A stretch of 64,000 nucleotides of DNA from Allocoleopsis franciscana PCC 7113 (GTDB lineage Bacteria; Cyanobacteriota; Cyanobacteriia; Cyanobacteriales; Coleofasciculaceae): positions 657,501-721,500 of the forward strand of contig NC_019738.1 in assembly GCF_000317515.1 (NCBI RefSeq). The letters are read 5' to 3'. The notes below the pieces were generated by a model. The model worked only from the letters and a program-made list of their open reading frames with translations. It was not told the origin of the DNA and ran no database searches. Position 1 is the stretch's first letter. Each line of letters starts with the position of its first letter. The position numbers were made by a program, and so were the translations under genes. This document shows positions 2,279 through 64,000 of the stretch, in pieces.

Positions 2279-3667
2279 CTAGGAAAATGACACCTGATTT
2301 TCATCTACAATTTGATAGAAGTTTTTCTGGGCTTCCCGATCGCCTGACAACTGCTCCCAGCTTGTGATAGAGGCTTCAGTGGGCTGAGTTTCTGCCAGAA
2401 TGGCACCTAACCAGATAAAAAAGAACCAAAAATACACGGTCATCCAGGTTAAAGGTGTAGCTTGGCACAGCACATATAAGGCTACCAAGCTAGCAAATGC
2501 CTGTTTGCTGGATGGGTTGCCTCGAACGGCTGAACCCCAGAAATTCCAGAGCGTTAAGGCTAGAGCCACGACAAAAACAATAAAACCCACGATTCCGTGC
2601 AAGTAAAGCACGGAGGCATAGGTAGAAAAAGAACCCAGGGCAATTTCGTAGGTATACCATTTCACTGAACCCCGAATAATACCCCATCCCACCCAGGGTG
2701 ATTCTTGCCAAGCCTCTAGGGTTTTGCGAACGACGAGTTCCCGATCTTTCGATGACTCAGCGCGAGCGCCATTGAAAATTTCCCAGGGTTTATTAATTAA
2801 TTGGCTTAAAGTCAGCCCCAAAAGAGCGCAGAGTAATGAGGTGAAAGAGGCTCCCCAAAGAGAACCCTGACGCGCCCACCGACTGCTGAAACAGGCCAGA
2901 ATCAATAGAGCCAAGGGGAAGCAGACCCAAGCCAGACGGCTCTGACTAATGAGCAGAGCGCTTAAGGAACCTGCCAACGCGAATTTTCGCAGGCGTCGGT
3001 CTGTTTCACCCAGGCAGATAAAGAAACAGAGCAGGGCACAAACCCCTAGAATCGGTGGGTCTGGCGTGTACAATTCTGTCCTGGGTAAAGGAATACCAAA
3101 GAAAGGTTGAAATACGGCAAACTTAATCAACAGACTGAGTTTATCACCGGGTATGAGGCGTGCCAGAGGAGGAACCAGAGATGTCTTACCCAATCCGAGG
3201 AAAAGGATGATGAGTTGAATAACAATGGCGGCTAAGTAACCCGTTGCCATCCAAGCAACGGCACGCGTCACCACGCGCACCCTAATTTGATTCCAAAACG
3301 GTAGTGTTAAGCACAGAAAAATAAGGCAGTAGCTTTTCAAAAAGGTGACAGCAAAAGCTGCCGTTTTCTGGAATCCAAATCCAACGCTACCCAGACCGAT
3401 GATAGCTGTCCAAACCATGACTATCGCCATTGCCAGCCACGCCCAAGCACAGGCTGGGAGAGAAGTTTTAATCAGCTTGTTGAAGTCAAAGGTAACGACG
3501 AATAAGCCGACAATCATCACTGGATAAAGCAACGTCTGTATACCGGACAACCACCAGAGCGGTGTGAGAACAATCGTCCAATAAATCACTCGTTCGGGAA
3601 AGGGCAGGGTACCCAGCGGGAAATCTTTCTGCGTGGAACTTTCGGTACTAGGGGTGATGTTCAACAT
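2279..3667 (-). CDS. Wzy/O-antigen-ligase-like polysaccharide polymerase
   Basis: A 462-residue protein made mostly of hydrophobic segments, around ten to twelve, with a larger hydrophilic loop in the second half that contains WGIIRGSVKWYTYE. This is the Wzy_C/O-antigen ligase pattern: sequence conservation is low, and topology and the late loop carry the recognition. It would join repeat units delivered to the outer face of the plasma membrane. It follows the GT2 gene by 12 nt, and the Wzc-like gene begins 63 nt downstream, so all are probably co-transcribed. Polymerase and ligase cannot be told apart by eye; the Wzc neighbour favours polymerase. Confidence 0.75.
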   Translation of the reverse strand: MLNITPSTESSTQKDFPLGTLPFPERVIYWTIVLTPLWWLSGIQTLLYPVMIVGLFVVTFDFNKLIKTSLPACAWAWLAMAIVMVWTAIIGLGSVGFGFQKTAAFAVTFLKSYCLIFLCLTLPFWNQIRVRVVTRAVAWMATGYLAAIVIQLIILFLGLGKTSLVPPLARLIPGDKLSLLIKFAVFQPFFGIPLPRTELYTPDPPILGVCALLCFFICLGETDRRLRKFALAGSLSALLISQSRLAWVCFPLALLILACFSSRWARQGSLWGASFTSLLCALLGLTLSQLINKPWEIFNGARAESSKDRELVVRKTLEAWQESPWVGWGIIRGSVKWYTYEIALGSFSTYASVLYLHGIVGFIVFVVALALTLWNFWGSAVRGNPSSKQAFASLVALYVLCQATPLTWMTVYFWFFFIWLGAILAETQPTEASITSWEQLSGDREAQKNFYQIVDENQVSFS

Positions 3668-3679
3668 TGGCTTTCCACA

Positions 3680-4621
3680 CTATGCGCTGCTGCTACTCTG
3701 AGTTTTTTTGCCAAACAAAGCTCGTAAAGAGCGTCGGGCTTCTTGGGGGATTAGCCACATGCCACAGTACAAGAGAAAATCAATCGGCTTGGGTTCGCCC
3801 AGACGCATAGCTTCCCACAGCAGAGGCAAAAATGCGCTCCACTCGCCCTGTTGGGATGCTCGTGGACCGACCTCCACCATAATAAAGGCTGAATAAGCTC
3901 GTGGTGTTACCAGATTCCGGTTTTCTCGAATCCAAGTCAGCGAGTTTTGCCAATTACTAGTACTACTGACACTACTACGCTTTTCCTCGATGTACCAGAT
4001 AGCCAAAGGCTCAGGTACAAACTCAATCCCTACACCTTCTACAGAACTGACTCGCAACAGCCAGTCCCAATCTTGATGTCTCCGCAAATCTCGAAAAGGA
4101 ACCTTTTGCAGTAAATCTTTTTTAGTAAAAATTACAGAAGTTTGGATTAATCCTTCTCCTGGAAATAGGCTATTTCGGACTAAGAGATATTCGCTTAGGG
4201 GTTCTGATGGTTGTAGAAATCTTTTAGGACGAATAAAATCACCTTTTGGTGTGCGGGCAATCAGACAACTGCCAATAATGGGAAAAGCGTATTGGGAACG
4301 ATGAGCGGTTTCAAGTTGCCGCTCTAGCTTTTCAGGAAACCATTCGTCATCATCATCTAAAAAAGCAATCCATTCTCCCTTAGCTTCGGTAACTCCAGTA
4401 TTACGAGCCTCAGAAGCCCCCCCACTCACGGGAAGTTCTATCACCCTCAATCGCGAATCATCTATTAGTGAAAGCTCCTTCACAGTTGCCTCATCTGGCC
4501 CATCAATGATCACAATCACTTCAATTTCTTTCAGGGTTTGGATCAGGGCGCTTTGAACCGCTCGTTTAGCGAGTGTTGACCGATTTCGTGTTGGTATAAC
4601 TACACTGACAAGAGTTTCCAA
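3680..4621 (-). CDS. Family 2 glycosyltransferase
   Basis: A GT-A fold inverting glycosyltransferase of 313 residues. The N terminus reads VSVVIPTRNRSTLAKRAV, the nucleotide-sugar-binding start of GT2 enzymes. A run of five aspartates in FLDDDDEWFPEKLE near residue 90 supplies the metal-binding DxD-type motif. No membrane segments are obvious, so it is probably a soluble or peripheral enzyme that adds one sugar to the lipid-linked repeat unit. Donor and acceptor cannot be read from sequence. It sits 20 nt downstream of the GT4-type gene and 12 nt upstream of the polymerase gene, inside the exopolysaccharide operon. Confidence 0.88.
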   Translation of the reverse strand: METLVSVVIPTRNRSTLAKRAVQSALIQTLKEIEVIVIIDGPDEATVKELSLIDDSRLRVIELPVSGGASEARNTGVTEAKGEWIAFLDDDDEWFPEKLERQLETAHRSQYAFPIIGSCLIARTPKGDFIRPKRFLQPSEPLSEYLLVRNSLFPGEGLIQTSVIFTKKDLLQKVPFRDLRRHQDWDWLLRVSSVEGVGIEFVPEPLAIWYIEEKRSSVSSTSNWQNSLTWIRENRNLVTPRAYSAFIMVEVGPRASQQGEWSAFLPLLWEAMRLGEPKPIDFLLYCGMWLIPQEARRSLRALFGKKTQSSSSA

Positions 4622-4641
4622 TTGAATTACCTCCTCATGAT

Positions 4642-5685
4642 TTACCGATTAACTGCAATCGCTTTGTAAGCATCAATTGTCTGCCGTGCTAATTCCTTCC
4701 AGTCCAGAGTTTCCAGGGAAGGCTGTTTAGGGCGCGGTGTGTTTAAAGTCCACTTTAAGGCTTCTTCAATCTGGGTGGGTGTAATCTCGCCTTCGTAAGT
4801 ACTTACCCACTGATCACCCACTTGGTTTTGCAGTTCGCTCAACGCCCCTCGCAAAGGTACTAAAACCGGACAATCAAAAGAAAGCGCTAATAAAGCACTA
4901 CCAGAGTTCAAAATTTCTCGGTAGGGCAAAATCACGAGATCGGCAGCTCTAAAATATAATTGCGCTTTGTCATCGGGAATAAATTCCAAGTGCATTCGTA
5001 TCCGAGAATCTGAGGCGGCTTCCCTTTCCAGTTCTTGTATTAATGTCGCAGGTTCGGGGCGACCGGCAATATATAAAATAACCTCTTGTTGGGGGAACTT
5101 GCGGAATGCTTGGATCAGCGCAGGGACGTTTTTGTAAGGTCTAATTCTCCCAAAGAACAGCAACATTTTAGCCTCCGGAGGAATTCCTAATGAAGTGCGG
5201 GCTTCCTGATGACTTACATAATCGGGATATTCGCCTCGATAATGGCTATGAGGAATGACAAAACCAGGAAGATGGCTTAACTTCGGAAAGCGTTCTTGGG
5301 CCGCTTTAATTCCCGCGTGACTGAGACTAATATAACCATCCAAACGGTGGGTGAAGGCTTTCCAAAACCAAGCTTCTAGTTCCGGATAACGTTTCTCATG
5401 ATTCGCTAGATTATGTACTGTCCACACAATTTTAGCGCCCTGCGATCGCGCCCAATCCATTTGGAGTAACAAGGCTTGTATTTTCAGGAAAGCTTTCACC
5501 GGGTTTCGATGATTTAGAGGTACGTCTGGCCAGTGCAGATGCCAGATGGCATATCGATTACGCAATAAGGAAATACTAGAGAACTCATCTACTTTTACTC
5601 CCAAGTCTTTCATTGAGGCGTAAAGGAGCCAATTATAAGGATTTTTATCGCGATTTTTAAAGGCTGGCATCGCTATAATGTTCAT
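4642..5685 (-). CDS. GT-B fold glycosyltransferase (GT1/GT4 type)
   Basis: 347 residues. The C-terminal half carries a GT4-like donor-binding domain: KMLLFFGRIRPYKNVPALIQ begins it, and a long acidic stretch ends in LPYREILNSGSALLALSFD, matching the position of the E-x7-E region of GT4 enzymes. The N-terminal half has the Rossmann-like acceptor domain with IVWTVHNLANHEKR. It probably transfers a sugar during repeat-unit assembly at the cytoplasmic membrane face. The gene lies between the flippase and a GT2 in the same orientation. The substrate cannot be assigned. Confidence 0.85.
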   Translation of the reverse strand: MNIIAMPAFKNRDKNPYNWLLYASMKDLGVKVDEFSSISLLRNRYAIWHLHWPDVPLNHRNPVKAFLKIQALLLQMDWARSQGAKIVWTVHNLANHEKRYPELEAWFWKAFTHRLDGYISLSHAGIKAAQERFPKLSHLPGFVIPHSHYRGEYPDYVSHQEARTSLGIPPEAKMLLFFGRIRPYKNVPALIQAFRKFPQQEVILYIAGRPEPATLIQELEREAASDSRIRMHLEFIPDDKAQLYFRAADLVILPYREILNSGSALLALSFDCPVLVPLRGALSELQNQVGDQWVSTYEGEITPTQIEEALKWTLNTPRPKQPSLETLDWKELARQTIDAYKAIAVNR

Positions 5686-59090: not shown

Positions 59091-59498
59091 TAGTTTAACG
59101 TTTCCCTAGTGAATTTTAAAATTTGAGCCTCCTGAATTGGGGGCTTTTTCTTTGGCTATGGGGTGATGGATGCAATGGCAAAGAGTTGCGTTTCCGTTAA
59201 ATTGCGAGTCCTACTTCAGAGACGCAACTGCTTACTGGAGTTTAGACTACGATGGCAAGGAGTGCCGAGTAGAGAAGCAGTAATTACGGCAAAAAAATTA
59301 GTCAAGTTCGCGAGTGCCAATCGCGAATAAAACTCAGCGCAATGAAACTGACATGAAATGATACAGACTTAAGCTCAAGCCGGGATGATTGCCCAGAACA
59401 AAAACTCTCGCGTGTGTCTCTCCGGTTCTGTGTTTCCGTGTCTACCCTAATCAAGAGCATCCAACCTGACATGTATAAGTCATGGGAAAGGGGAGAAA
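59091..59498. other. Spacer before the transposase
   Basis: 408 nt holding the terminator at 59127-59153 and, near its right end, the left arm of the hairpin at 59490-59531. CTCTCCGGTTCTGTGTTTCCGTG near 59419 is a degenerate ACAGAG-type repeat on the other strand. I could not find convincing inverted ends for the IS. Confidence 0.5.
59127..59153 (+). terminator. Terminator after the tandem-repeat gene
   Basis: GCCTCC (59127-59132) pairs with GGGGGC (59139-59144), one G-T wobble, around TGAATT, followed by TTTTTCTTT. Confidence 0.8.
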
Positions 59499-59531
59499 AT
59501 GATAATTAACCAAAATCGATCATTTCTCCCC
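59490..59531 (+). promoter_or_regulatory. Hairpin covering the transposase start codon
   Basis: GGGGAGAAAATGAT (59490-59503) and ATCATTTCTCCCC (59519-59531) form a 13-bp stem with one bulged A. The first arm contains the GGGGAG ribosome-site-like run and the ATG at 59499. A transcript that includes both arms would hide the start. Confidence 0.6.
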
Positions 59532-60842
59532 TGCATGAACTATAAACAACTTCAAGAATTTCGCCAACAAGTTTACGACTTAATTAACTTCGCGCAGGAT
59601 GCTACTTTTGAGTTGACTGATGCTGTACTCACAACTCGCAATGTCTATAGCCTAGCTGAATTTTCTTTAAGTCCCTTTTTTCGACGGAAGTGGCCGAGCA
59701 TATATGAAGCTCTACAAGACTGTAGACCGAATCGCAACAAGTTAATGCGCCTGTATATCAAACAGATACTAGTGCAGGAGCGCCCCGTTTTAGCCGTAGA
59801 TCATACGGCTTGGGCAAGAGTTCATTCACCAACATTGCAAGACCGTACTTACTGCCATCAGCCAAGTGCGATCGCTTCCAACAAACCGATTAGTATCGGT
59901 CAAGGATACAGTACCATAGCTTGGATACCCGAACATAAGGGCAGTTGGGCATTACCTTTGAGACATGAGCGGATTACCAGTTGGGAGAATCCGATTAGCA
60001 AAGCTGCTTGGCAAATCAAACAAGCTTGTAAGTATTTGCCACTACGTCCGATGATTTTACTCGATAGTGAATATGGCAATGCTTCCTTGCTCAATCAAAC
60101 AGCCCAGATAGAAGCCGACTTTTTGATGAGGATTCGTTCTAATCGTTGTTTATACTCAGCACCTCCTGCCTATACAGGTAAGGGACGACCCAGAAAACAT
60201 GGTCAAAAATTTAAGCTCAACGACTCATCAACTTGGTGGGAAGCTACTGAAATGGTTGAAGTTGAGGACTCAAGGTTTGGGCAACTTCGAGTCCGGATGT
60301 GGCAAGACCTGCATTTTTCTGGTAGTGCTTCAATTGCTATGCAATTAATTTTAGTCGAACGTATCCTGCCGGAGCAATCACACTCAAAGTCTCAACCGTT
60401 ATGGTTGGTGTGGGTAGGTCAGGAAATGCTGCCCCTGCCTGAGATTTGGCGACAATATTTACGTCGCTTTGCTGTTGACCACTGGTATCGTTTTCTTAAA
60501 CAACGATTACATTGGACAGTTCCTCAACTGAGTACTCCATGCCAATGTGAAAGGTGGAGTGATTTAATGCCCATATTGACTTGGGAATTATGGTTAGCTA
60601 GAGACTTGGTGGCACAACACCACCTTCCTTGGCAAAAACCCCTGTCAAATTTAACTCCTGGGCGGGTGGCTGAGTCGTTCGCATTACTTTTACCGGAGAT
60701 TGGCACACCGGCTGTCTCTCCCAAACCCCGTGGAAAGTCTCCGGGTTGGCAAGCCGGGAACAAACGTACTAAAAAAACTCGTTACCCAGTAGTGAAAAAA
60801 GGAAAAACACCACACAAAAAACGGACAAAAAAAGCTGCTTAA
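59499..60842 (+). CDS. DDE transposase (IS701/IS4-like, cyanobacterial type)
   Basis: 447 residues. An RNase H-like core is suggested by LAVDHTAWARVHSPT (first Asp), MILLDSEYGNASLL (second Asp) and the late RRFAVDHWYRFLKQRLHW with an acidic position before it. The C terminus is very basic (KTRYPVVKKGKTPHKKRTKK). I recognise the protein as the type found in many copies in filamentous cyanobacteria and annotated as a putative transposase. The reading frame is intact. Translation may begin at 59499 or at the ATG at 59535 just after the hairpin. No clear terminal repeats were found, so the element borders are not set. Confidence 0.82.
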   Translation: MIINQNRSFLPCMNYKQLQEFRQQVYDLINFAQDATFELTDAVLTTRNVYSLAEFSLSPFFRRKWPSIYEALQDCRPNRNKLMRLYIKQILVQERPVLAVDHTAWARVHSPTLQDRTYCHQPSAIASNKPISIGQGYSTIAWIPEHKGSWALPLRHERITSWENPISKAAWQIKQACKYLPLRPMILLDSEYGNASLLNQTAQIEADFLMRIRSNRCLYSAPPAYTGKGRPRKHGQKFKLNDSSTWWEATEMVEVEDSRFGQLRVRMWQDLHFSGSASIAMQLILVERILPEQSHSKSQPLWLVWVGQEMLPLPEIWRQYLRRFAVDHWYRFLKQRLHWTVPQLSTPCQCERWSDLMPILTWELWLARDLVAQHHLPWQKPLSNLTPGRVAESFALLLPEIGTPAVSPKPRGKSPGWQAGNKRTKKTRYPVVKKGKTPHKKRTKKAA

Positions 60843-60909
60843 TCTCTATTTTTTCTCTGGCTGTTCTTCTTTCTCAGCTTTTGTTATCGCTGAGTTAGTT
60901 TGTCGTAGT

Positions 60910-61059
60910 CTAATCTCCAGTGCTTACTGTTATGGTTTTCTGGTCAAAGACAAATTCGCTATAGTCAGCTAAGTTATCGAGTCCTAAGAGATTGAGGAGA
61001 ATTTCAATAATTAGCCAGAAGCTGATTTGAATGAGTGTCTTTTGCCACTGAGTTTGCAT
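60910..61059 (-). CDS. Small conserved hydrophobic-core protein
   Basis: 49 residues from the ATG at 61059, preceded by AGGAAGG with a 9-nt gap, a good ribosome site; the frame is open upstream to 61179 but that part is not protein-like. Sequence: basic start MQTQWQKTLIQ, one membrane segment (ISFWLIIEILLNLLGL) and an acidic end (DNLADYSEFVFDQ). I have seen similar short ORFs in cyanobacterial genomes without function. It faces the transposase gene end to end. Confidence 0.55.
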   Translation of the reverse strand: MQTQWQKTLIQISFWLIIEILLNLLGLDNLADYSEFVFDQKTITVSTGD

Positions 61060-61422
61060 ATTAGCTGACCTTCCTAATCTATGCCCTTGAGGTTTGAACT
61101 GGCGGTTTGAAAATTGTGTTAGGGATAGTAGATGAGATCGCCTGGAACTATTGATATAAGCTACATCCTTGAATCCCACTACAGGTTATCTCGCCTTGGG
61201 TCTAGCTGGAATCAAGAAATTTACTGAACTTTTTTGGAGAAAGCTTAGGGATTTAAGGGAAATTACGGATGAATTTTAGGGGTGTGGTACGTAGGGAGCG
61301 ATCGCACCTAAGGTGAGTCATTGATAATCAGGTAGTGAGGCTCAGCTCGCTCCACAGCCAACCTCTTCAACATAGCGATCGCTTTGATGTAAATTAAGCC
61401 ATGATGTGTTTACGAGCAAATA

Positions 61423-61767
61423 GTGGAAGCTCAGCCAAGACAGATTCAGAACTATCTGACAGCAGACGGGAGAAGCCCTTTTGAAGAATGGCTTGATTCT
61501 CTGCGAGATACCAGAGCTATAGATAAAATCGAGAAAAGACTTAAGCGAGTCGCGTCAGGTAATTTGGGAGACTACGCTGGAGTTGGAGAAGGAGTCTATG
61601 AACTAAGAATTGATTATGGCCCAGGATATCGGGTCTATTTTGGGCAAATAGGGTCAATAATAGTACTTCTCCTATGTGGCGGAGATAAAAGTACTCAAAA
61701 ACAGGACATTCTTAGAGCTAAGGAATATTGGAGAGATTATGAAAGAAGTGAAAACCCAAAGAAGTAG
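61423..61767 (+). CDS. RelE/ParE-superfamily toxin (HigB/Gp49 type)
   Basis: 114 residues. IDKIEKRLKRVASGNLGDYA followed by VGEGVYELRIDYGPGYRVYF and LLLCGGDKSTQKQDILRAKE is the pattern of phage-Gp49-like addiction-module killers, ribosome-dependent mRNA interferases. The residues Arg in ELRIDYG and GYRVYF and the Lys of GGDKSTQ sit where the family has conserved basic residues. It starts at a GTG (61423). The antitoxin gene overlaps its last 29 nt, the usual toxin-first order of HigBA-like modules. Confidence 0.88.
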   Translation: MEAQPRQIQNYLTADGRSPFEEWLDSLRDTRAIDKIEKRLKRVASGNLGDYAGVGEGVYELRIDYGPGYRVYFGQIGSIIVLLLCGGDKSTQKQDILRAKEYWRDYERSENPKK

Positions 61768-62059
61768 GAGCTACCACGAGTATTTAATTTCATCTCTTAA
61801 AGACCCCGAAAGGGCTGCTGGTTATATGGGGGTTATGCTGGAATTGGACGAAGAAGGTTTTGAACCTGAACTGCTGCGATCAGCACTTAAAGATGTTGTA
61901 GATGCTCGTGAGCAGATGAACAATCTGTCGGAAGAAGCTAAAAAGCGTTTCGAGAAACTCGATAAGATGCTGTTAGAAACAAAAGCTGCTGAGCTTCAAA
62001 GTCTTATTGAGTTTTTGGATGCACTGGGGTTTCGCCTTGCGATCGTAGCCAAAGATTAA
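61739..62059 (+). CDS. HigA-like antitoxin (HI1420 type)
   Basis: 106 residues from the ATG at 61739, which follows GGAGAG at 61730-61735; the frame opens earlier (61676) only inside the toxin gene. SYHEYLISSLKDPERAAGYM and LLRSALKDVVDAREQMNNL are typical of antidote proteins paired with Gp49-like toxins. The usual helix-turn-helix is weak; instead the C terminus is a coiled helix (LIEFLDALGFRLAIVAKD), so DNA binding is uncertain. Co-translated with the toxin by overlap. Confidence 0.8.
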   Translation: MKEVKTQRSRSYHEYLISSLKDPERAAGYMGVMLELDEEGFEPELLRSALKDVVDAREQMNNLSEEAKKRFEKLDKMLLETKAAELQSLIEFLDALGFRLAIVAKD

Positions 62060-62093: not shown

Positions 62094-62465
62094 TCAAAGT
62101 GATATACCTAGAATCGCACAGAGAGATTGAGCCAGTTCTTGTAGATAGCTATCCTCCAAATGACCAAGCACTCTAATAATTCGAGATTTGTCAATGACTC
62201 GAATCTGTTCACAAAGAACTACTGAGTCTTGGCTTAAGCCTCCAACTCCTGCTGGAACGAACACATGAGAAGGCAAAAGTTTACGTCGTATCTTTGTTGT
62301 AAACGGGGCAATGATAGTATGAGGACTAACGGCATTAGCCCGATCAATTTGTAGAATCACTACAGGTCGTATTCCTGCCTGCTCTGTACCCACCACTGGG
62401 TTAAGATCGCATAAAACTACATCTCCTCGTGCTATGGGGGAACTGGTTGGAGGGGTTGCTACCAC
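62094..62465 (-). CDS. MazF/PemK-type mRNA interferase toxin
   Basis: 123 residues. IARGDVVLCDLNPVVGTEQA followed by GIRPVVILQIDRANAVSPHT and IIAPFTTK is the MazF fold signature, with the conserved Arg of the PGIRPVVI-like strand; later VLCEQIRVIDKSRIIRVLGH completes the barrel. MazF enzymes cleave single-stranded RNA. Its start overlaps the stop of the DUF2281 gene by 7 nt, so the pair is co-translated. It is convergent with the HigA-like gene (35-nt gap). Confidence 0.92.
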   Translation of the reverse strand: MVATPPTSSPIARGDVVLCDLNPVVGTEQAGIRPVVILQIDRANAVSPHTIIAPFTTKIRRKLLPSHVFVPAGVGGLSQDSVVLCEQIRVIDKSRIIRVLGHLEDSYLQELAQSLCAILGISL

Positions 62466-62689
62466 TGAATTTCTCCACGAGCGAGACGTTCCTCGTAGTC
62501 TTCTAAATTCGGTAAGTAATCAGTGAAGTCTGACTCAGCAATTTCCAGGGCTTCATTGAACTGCATCCACAAGGCAGCACGTTTGCTGTCGTTTCTCATC
62601 AGCAGAAATTCTATGAAGTCATTCACTTGCTGGACAAGCGGTTCCGGCAGTTTGCGAATCTTCGCTATGGTTTCTTCCTGTACAGTCAT
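62459..62689 (-). CDS. DUF2281-type antitoxin
   Basis: 76 residues. ETIAKIRKLPEPLVQQVNDF with IEFLLMRN is the DUF2281 pattern (helical antitoxin that pairs with MazF or VapC toxins); the acidic C-terminal half (ALEIAESDFTDYLPNLEDYE) is the likely toxin-binding tail, ending in ERLARGEIQW. The ATG at 62689 lies 4 nt after the TAA of the reverse-transcriptase gene, with AGAAGG of that gene serving as ribosome site. Thus the RT gene, this antitoxin and MazF could be one transcript. Confidence 0.88.
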   Translation of the reverse strand: MTVQEETIAKIRKLPEPLVQQVNDFIEFLLMRNDSKRAALWMQFNEALEIAESDFTDYLPNLEDYEERLARGEIQW

Positions 62690-62693
62690 TTTT

Positions 62694-64000
62694 TTACCTT
62701 CTCAAAGGACATATAATTTTTAAGCATTTACCAACAGCATCACGGTACTGCATATATTCGTTTTCTGTAACTCCCCAGGCTATGTTTTGATCTGAACCTG
62801 GATGCGAGACTGTGTTGCGATTCCTTCTGTCAAAAAGGTTACGAATATCTATGCATATTTCATGAGGTACAAACTTAGAAGTAAGGTAGTTGACGGCATC
62901 ATCTGCTTCGTACTTTTTCTTTTTGTTTTCATCAAGCAGCAGACAAATTGCATGAATTTCGTTAAGAAGGTGATTCAGTGCAACTGAATAAGAGCCAATC
63001 TTCTCGTGAAATATACGCAATCGTATTTGTTCGATAATTTGTGATGCGTCTGAAAGAAAAATTAATTGCCCACCTAACAATTCGTAGTAACCCGGATAAT
63101 CTGATAGTATTTTAGCTTCCTGATATACAGTGGCAATATGGCTGAAAGCTTCGCTACATGTAAGCTTTTTTAAAAGATTTCTGTTTTTGAAATGTGTTTG
63201 ACAGAGAAACTTAATGATTAAATATAAGTCTCTGGTTGTTAGTTGATTTTTAGTATGCAGAAATTTTAAGAATCTATTTAAAGTTTTTTGATTTTTAGAA
63301 ATTATTAAAATAATCTCTCGTGGCATCACTTTTACTAAATCGAAGTTAAACTTATTGAATATTTCTTCAATTCTATTTTTATTTTCTTCGGTTTCTAAAA
63401 GTTGACTTATCGATTCATCATAAACTTCTTTTAGTATTTCTTCTTGAAGAGAGCCATCGTATCCAAGCGAAATATCTATACTTGAATTTTTTAACTTTTG
63501 TAGTTCATCAAAAATGTGGTCTATTTTTTTATGGGGAGCTTCCTCATTATCATCATCATTAGATGGATATTCAGGCGACACTTTTTTCAAATCTTTCAAT
63601 AATTCTTCCTTTTGTTCTAAGTTATTGAGCCAGTAGAGCTTTGTTTTCGTATTGAGTCTTAGTCCTGAATTATAATGCAGTACATCGGCTATTTGTGATG
63701 TAAGTGAATCAGCAATAGCTTCCTTCTTTTTCTGTTTTGTGGATTCTAAAAAATTTATGATTATAAATATATCGTCAACAAAGCGAATTACTTTATGTTC
63801 TTTTATTTCAGTTGGATATTTACTAATTTCTGTATCAATTATTAAATCACTAAAAAGTAAATATACATGACCTATGAAACCCGAAATAATATCGTTATCA
63901 GATTGCGGGATACCTCCTTGCTTACCAGATATATAGTTGAAATAAAAAGTAATTTGCTCCTTGGTTGAAGCATCAAATCGCAAGCTTTCTTTAATACTAG
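62694..64000 (-). CDS. AbiA-like reverse transcriptase with C-terminal HEPN-like domain (5' end outside window)
   Basis: The frame stays open to the window edge; the TTG at 63983 is not the true start (SIKES precedes it). Counting from there, GGIPQSDNDIISGFIG (about 23-38) matches RT motif 4 and VIRFVDDIFIII (FVDD at 68-71) is the catalytic motif 5. Residues about 130-330 are helical without motifs, like the alpha-repeat part of Abi polymerases. The C-terminal 60 residues carry RNTVSH (389-394), an Rx4H HEPN-type RNase motif. This order, RT then helical repeats then HEPN, is that known for AbiA abortive-infection proteins. Composition is visibly more AT-rich than flanking genes, a sign of transfer. 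It reads into a DUF2281/MazF pair 4 nt downstream. Confidence 0.82.
   Translation of the reverse strand, partial: SIKESLRFDASTKEQITFYFNYISGKQGGIPQSDNDIISGFIGHVYLLFSDLIIDTEISKYPTEIKEHKVIRFVDDIFIIINFLESTKQKKKEAIADSLTSQIADVLHYNSGLRLNTKTKLYWLNNLEQKEELLKDLKKVSPEYPSNDDDNEEAPHKKIDHIFDELQKLKNSSIDISLGYDGSLQEEILKEVYDESISQLLETEENKNRIEEIFNKFNFDLVKVMPREIILIISKNQKTLNRFLKFLHTKNQLTTRDLYLIIKFLCQTHFKNRNLLKKLTCSEAFSHIATVYQEAKILSDYPGYYELLGGQLIFLSDASQIIEQIRLRIFHEKIGSYSVALNHLLNEIHAICLLLDENKKKKYEADDAVNYLTSKFVPHEICIDIRNLFDRRNRNTVSHPGSDQNIAWGVTENEYMQYRDAVGKCLKIICPLRR

Follow-up and report, generated by a model that had tools for sequence, protein, structure and literature searches.

An intact AbiA gene probably inserted beside a DUF2281-MazF module in a toxin-antitoxin island of Allocoleopsis franciscana PCC 7113

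The reverse transcriptase (RT)-like gene that precedes a DUF2281/MazF gene pair in Allocoleopsis franciscana PCC 7113 is an intact, standard AbiA, a member of a known family of antiviral polymerases. AbiA was very probably inserted into a toxin-antitoxin (TA) island, AbiA and DUF2281-MazF being independent of each other and any co-transcription of them an accident of joining. The tempting interpretation of the locus as a single "RT + HEPN + MazF" system is removed as unsupported.

Organisation of the locus

The 64-kb stretch of DNA analysed (the window) belongs to a genome of 7.97 Mb in 9 contigs. It includes three consecutive genes on the minus strand, the first of which, abiA, is cut by the window edge, so that only the C-terminal 434 of 642 codons lie inside it (62694 to 64000; RT palm from before GGIPQ, helical domain and HEPN domain). 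This gene is followed by those for a DUF2281-type antitoxin of 76 aa (62459 to 62689) and a MazF/PemK-type endoribonuclease toxin of 123 aa (62094 to 62465). The TAA of the RT-like ORF at 62694–62696 is separated by a 4-nt gap from the next ATG at 62687–62689, and the DUF2281 and MazF ORFs overlap by 7 nt. Thus, the gene order and the apparent operon spacing described in the original prediction are borne out by the ORF coordinates, and the GGIPQ, FVDD and RNTVSH motifs reported for the RT gene were all found.

Extension of the gene to the right with the rest of the genome, proposed in order to find the RT N terminus and any upstream partner, gave the full AbiA of 642 aa, which starts with an ATG at C1:722122 (equivalent to window position 64622). 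The gene directly before it, which ends 17 nt ahead of AbiA, is a truncated Phd/VapB-like antitoxin gene (minus strand; L002:3139-3384, equivalent to 64639-64884). Its product gave weak matches to Phd and VapB models, below cut-off, and the N-terminal Phd-like part is kept. Homologues of this antitoxin end with DDFDEPL(A/P)xEFW..., and a PIN toxin gene that overlaps the antitoxin stop comes next. The antitoxin here ends with DNFDEPLPSDICLLSIQ before its stop codon, the C-terminal tip being lost, and there is no PIN gene after it at the locus.

Further genes of this kind are found nearby. A TA-like pair on the plus strand (61423 to 62059), convergent with mazF, consists of a RelE/HigB-like (RelE/HI1419-type) toxin (TIGR02683, 126 bits) and an antidote-like ORF that scored under the TIGR02684 cut-off. 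The antitoxin-AbiA-MazF cluster is preceded by three consecutive small XRE-family HTH genes (L002:3502-4631, minus strand). A DDE transposase ORF (DDE_5) was located at 59499-60842 (plus strand), and the stretch of ~59238-60918 that includes it is absent from the same-genus genome G001 and is therefore probably an insertion sequence.

AbiA and its HEPN domain

The TIGR04499 (AbiA) profile matched the protein at 610.5 bits (cut-off 250), covering residues 13-634 of 642, and the PADLOC AbiA model gave 409.6 bits for the gene, the best non-AbiA model (UG9) giving 44.9. Together with the structural match to PDB 8oz7 (Lactococcus AbiA), these scores confirm the AbiA-like assignment made from the motifs. 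Grouping with group II intron or retron RTs was not seen in the family-model scores, as group_II_RT_mat gave 30.9 bits, far under its cut-off of 300, and no retron model scored near the AbiA score.

An AlphaFold model of AbiA built from 23 homologues had a pLDDT of 88.3 and a pTM of 0.90. When this model was used in Foldseek, the top matches were all 8oz7 (E 2e-16), and the VIA alignment with 8oz7 extended over all three domains (Z 26.6, rmsd 3.4, 540 residues aligned, model range 6-642); the next VIA entry, at Z 17.9, matched the RT part only. The structure search recovered 8oz7, which was not recovered from PDB sequences by phmmer with the single protein or by profiles A1 and A2. L. lactis AbiA (PDB 8oz7, PMC11077055) and the cyanobacterial protein have the same architecture of RT-like, helical and C-terminal HEPN domains over the whole length at 16–17% identity in the structural alignment, and share the catalytic aspartates and the R-x6-H motif in the same register (RNSNPVSH and RNRNTVSH, respectively). 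Unlike that of L. lactis, the cyanobacterial gene is chromosomal and its 3' end is fused to a TA module.

The 23 homologues, which are 23-70% identical and come from Cyanobacteria, Chloroflexi, Nitrospirota, Bacteroidota and Bacillota, were all called AbiA by PADLOC (23/23). The RT catalytic aspartates D185, D283 and D284 are invariant in these 23 sequences. The sole long low-confidence loop in the model, residues 349-358, lies between the RT and helical domains and holds Tyr352, and 18 of the 23 homologues have a tyrosine somewhere in this loop. The priming tyrosines of L. lactis AbiA, Tyr298/Tyr303, are in the corresponding disordered loop (PMC11077055), so that in both proteins the flexible linker between the RT and helical domains contains a tyrosine. 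Tyr352 is a candidate priming tyrosine by analogy, the loops being equated by position between domains and not by residue-level alignment.

The R-x6-H of the HEPN domain (R600/H607) is invariant in 23/23 homologues (alignment A2). The domain had been described as an HEPN RNase. While the HEPN assignment stands, with R600/H607 intact, the RNase part is doubtful, as RNase activity was not seen with L. lactis AbiA and its R581A/H588A mutant kept full defence; polymerase-dead and priming-dead mutants lost defence (PMC11077055). HEPN mediates the dimer of L. lactis AbiA (PMC11077055), and by homology the HEPN of this cyanobacterial AbiA may also be structural. The invariance of R-x6-H across phyla appears unusual for a functionless motif and would count against a purely structural HEPN. 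Hence, a puzzle remains in that the motif is invariant in several phyla, yet dispensable for defence in Lactococcus.

The most likely function of the cyanobacterial AbiA, by analogy with that known for L. lactis AbiA (PMC11077055), is phage defence. AbiA would form an HEPN-mediated dimer, as in Lactococcus, and its RT-like domain would produce untemplated DNA covalently primed on a linker tyrosine (candidate Tyr352), by which phage development would be blocked.

The DUF2281-MazF module and conservation of the pairing

The recognition of a MazF-type toxin with a DUF2281 antitoxin was supported by Pfam, both matches being above cut-off. PF02452 (PemK/MazF) gave 106.7 bits against a cut-off of 23.1 for the toxin, whose gene is overlapped by the antitoxin gene upstream, and PF10047 (DUF2281) gave 27.2 bits, just over the cut-off of 26.5 and for residues 8-36 only. 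This MazF is the only PemK_toxin match in the Allocoleopsis franciscana PCC 7113 genome. Close MazF proteins were found in 14/388 genomes of the class, this one included, and in the 13 others (13/13) a DUF2281 gene lies directly upstream of MazF, overlapping or abutting. Stand-alone cyanobacterial DUF2281-MazF/PemK modules share the antitoxin-toxin order and the 7-nt overlap, and those of 12 genomes are 45-65% (antitoxin) and 71-83% (toxin) identical to the module here, the 13th being more distant; in contrast to them, the leader/promoter is here replaced by the abiA 3' end. In two published accounts, DUF2281 is mostly paired with PIN/VapC (PMC4963859, PMC12654330). Judged from these comparisons of sequence, DUF2281-MazF is a conserved stand-alone type II TA module.

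AbiA was matched in 9/147 genomes of relatives, with Allocoleopsis franciscana PCC 7113 counted in. A single-sequence scan of genome contigs found no AbiA, and an alignment query of the contigs found 35 loci, two of them weak and some duplicates of the first set; the sample is small (~35 loci) and some loci are cut by contig ends. Neither MazF, DUF2281 nor the upstream antitoxin was found by tblastn in the ~35 other AbiA loci. A Pfam scan of 74 small proteins near AbiA loci revealed no PemK among the top 25 of 47 families; a DUF2281-like neighbour of low score might lie among the others, but tblastn found none. In the closest AbiA relatives (70%, 66% and 61% identical), none of the ORFs listed next to AbiA is a TA gene, and AbiA was not found within ~1.5 kb either side of MazF in any of the 13 MazF homologues.

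Thus, the AbiA-DUF2281-MazF order was present in 0 of ~35 AbiA loci and 0/13 MazF loci of relatives. The neighbourhood survey, put forward in the original prediction as the check on a composite defence unit, showed the order to be conserved nowhere among the loci examined, and the proposal of such a unit is not sustained. Since DUF2281 is always by MazF in these homologues and no relative examined has the pairing, the TA pair is a conserved stand-alone module and AbiA usually stands alone. With the AbiA-TA pairing absent from every relative examined, the cluster appears to be a mosaic formed by chance within a TA island. The nearest AbiA is only 70% identical, so that a recent lineage with the combination could be absent from the collections. 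No AbiA relatives were detected on plasmids, in phage records or on viral contigs at the sensitivity used.

In the AbiA loci of relatives, the gene is split by frameshifts in L063, L064, L068, L081, L087 and L093, and in an Anaerolineae MAG (L084:5973-7246) it is interrupted by ORFs resembling an insertion sequence.

Junctions and origin of the cluster

The GC content of AbiA is 32%, against 46% for DUF2281, 45% for MazF, 49% for the upstream antitoxin and 46% for the window. At the 3' junction (62690 to 62720, minus strand), recognised by the end of AbiA homology and a leader match, abiA passes into antitoxin leader-like sequence. At the DNA level, AbiA resembles its relatives up to 17-22 nt (about 20) before the stop codon, and they do not share its C-terminal tail CPLRR. 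After the similarity ends, the sequence is AGGTAAAAAAATGACTGT here and AGGTAAAAATATGACTGT before the stand-alone antitoxin of genome G020; the segment AGGTAAAAAAATG, which includes the AbiA TAA, matches the leader AGGTAAAAATATG of the stand-alone DUF2281 gene. A TATAAT is located further upstream of the matching leader in G020. The end of similarity and the leader match therefore place the AbiA TAA inside an apparent old antitoxin leader. The 5' junction sequence was found neither elsewhere in the genome nor in the other loci compared, and because it is unique, a mobile-element remnant was not identified. In G001, the flanks 60919-61308 and 67026-67619 are kept with 1.45 kb between them, compared with 5.7 kb here, and this genome has neither AbiA nor MazF. 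AbiA is an AT-rich cassette whose junctions appear to be recent, and we infer that the cluster was joined by recombination within an island of TA and regulator genes.

According to this reconstruction, an intact AbiA would have entered the TA island by illegitimate recombination or horizontal gain. It would have landed between the Phd/VapB-like antitoxin, which has lost its last few codons and its PIN toxin, and DUF2281-mazF, whose own leader and promoter would have been lost at the insertion. DUF2281-MazF would act as a separate type II TA, in which mRNA is cleaved by MazF unless DUF2281 holds it, and would be co-transcribed with AbiA by accident of joining, with no conserved two-effector system. 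Seen in this way, the locus shows that 4-nt "operon" spacing can arise through recombination into a TA island.

An SD-like AGAAGG is present ahead of the antitoxin ATG, and this and the 4-nt gap fit a working operon, so that joint regulation is possible. Promoter and terminator scans gave sites no commoner than in shuffles (promoters 9 vs 9.1). As DUF2281-MazF is without its own leader and no promoter signal exceeds chance, it is probably read from the upstream AbiA transcript. No Rfam families were found in 6 kb around the locus, and when the sequences upstream of AbiA in the closest relatives were inspected by eye, no obvious element common with this locus was seen; hence an upstream ncRNA partner of the RT, for which a search had been proposed, is not suggested.

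AFZ16538.1, which we take to be an accession of Allocoleopsis franciscana PCC 7113, is, with WP_015180701.1, probably the AbiA gene of this locus, the neighbourhood content being the same. AFZ16538.1 / WP_015180701.1 is listed in Table 1 of PMC8934634 (myRT) as reclassified AbiA with co-occurring MazF and HTH_XRE, in a table row only, without HEPN analysis, junctions or a test of neighbourhood conservation. The earlier remark that no described RT-HEPN system with this TA pair was known to its author is thus probably superseded, and the RT-HEPN fusion was already described as AbiA (PMC3710099, PMC11077055).

Joint action of AbiA, DUF2281 and MazF as a composite defence operon, in which AbiA might, for example, serve as the phage sensor and the mRNA interferase be set free as a second effector, would account for the tight spacing, the apparent single transcript and the intact ORFs and motifs of the three genes. 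However, the pairing is absent from the other AbiA and MazF loci, AbiA alone defends in a surrogate host (PMC11077055) and the junctions appear to be recent, and this is the least probable of the readings considered. An unlikely arrangement is that AbiA occupies the toxin position of a VapB/Phd-like operon, with the truncated antitoxin as its putative DNA-binding repressor and MazF passively downstream. It is consistent with the 17-nt distance, the kept N-terminal Phd-like part and the PIN toxin that takes the AbiA position after homologous antitoxin genes, but the antitoxin model scores are below cut-off and the arrangement is known from a single genome.

A captured hybrid operon, with AbiA in the toxin slot of the truncated Phd/VapB-type repressor, reading into DUF2281-MazF and with a possibly catalytic HEPN, is highly improbable; if true, one antitoxin-controlled transcript would supply both an mRNA interferase and a polymerase that makes untemplated DNA, and hence a two-layer antiviral response. 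It is also quite unlikely that the locus is decaying and AbiA an inactive remnant in this host: AbiA is broken in several relatives by frameshift or insertion, and AbiA here has lost its last ~5 residues and its native 5' region, but the full 642-aa ORF, all invariant residues and a complete fold of high confidence are retained. Insertion of an intact AbiA into the TA island is the preferred explanation.

Some other AbiA loci lie near different TA genes, such as YefM-YoeB in L072. In L063, L064 and L065 (Calothrix group), a 601-aa gene, presumably DUF262-like, is located ~200 nt upstream of AbiA (~2930-4765) and is a possible clade-specific neighbour.
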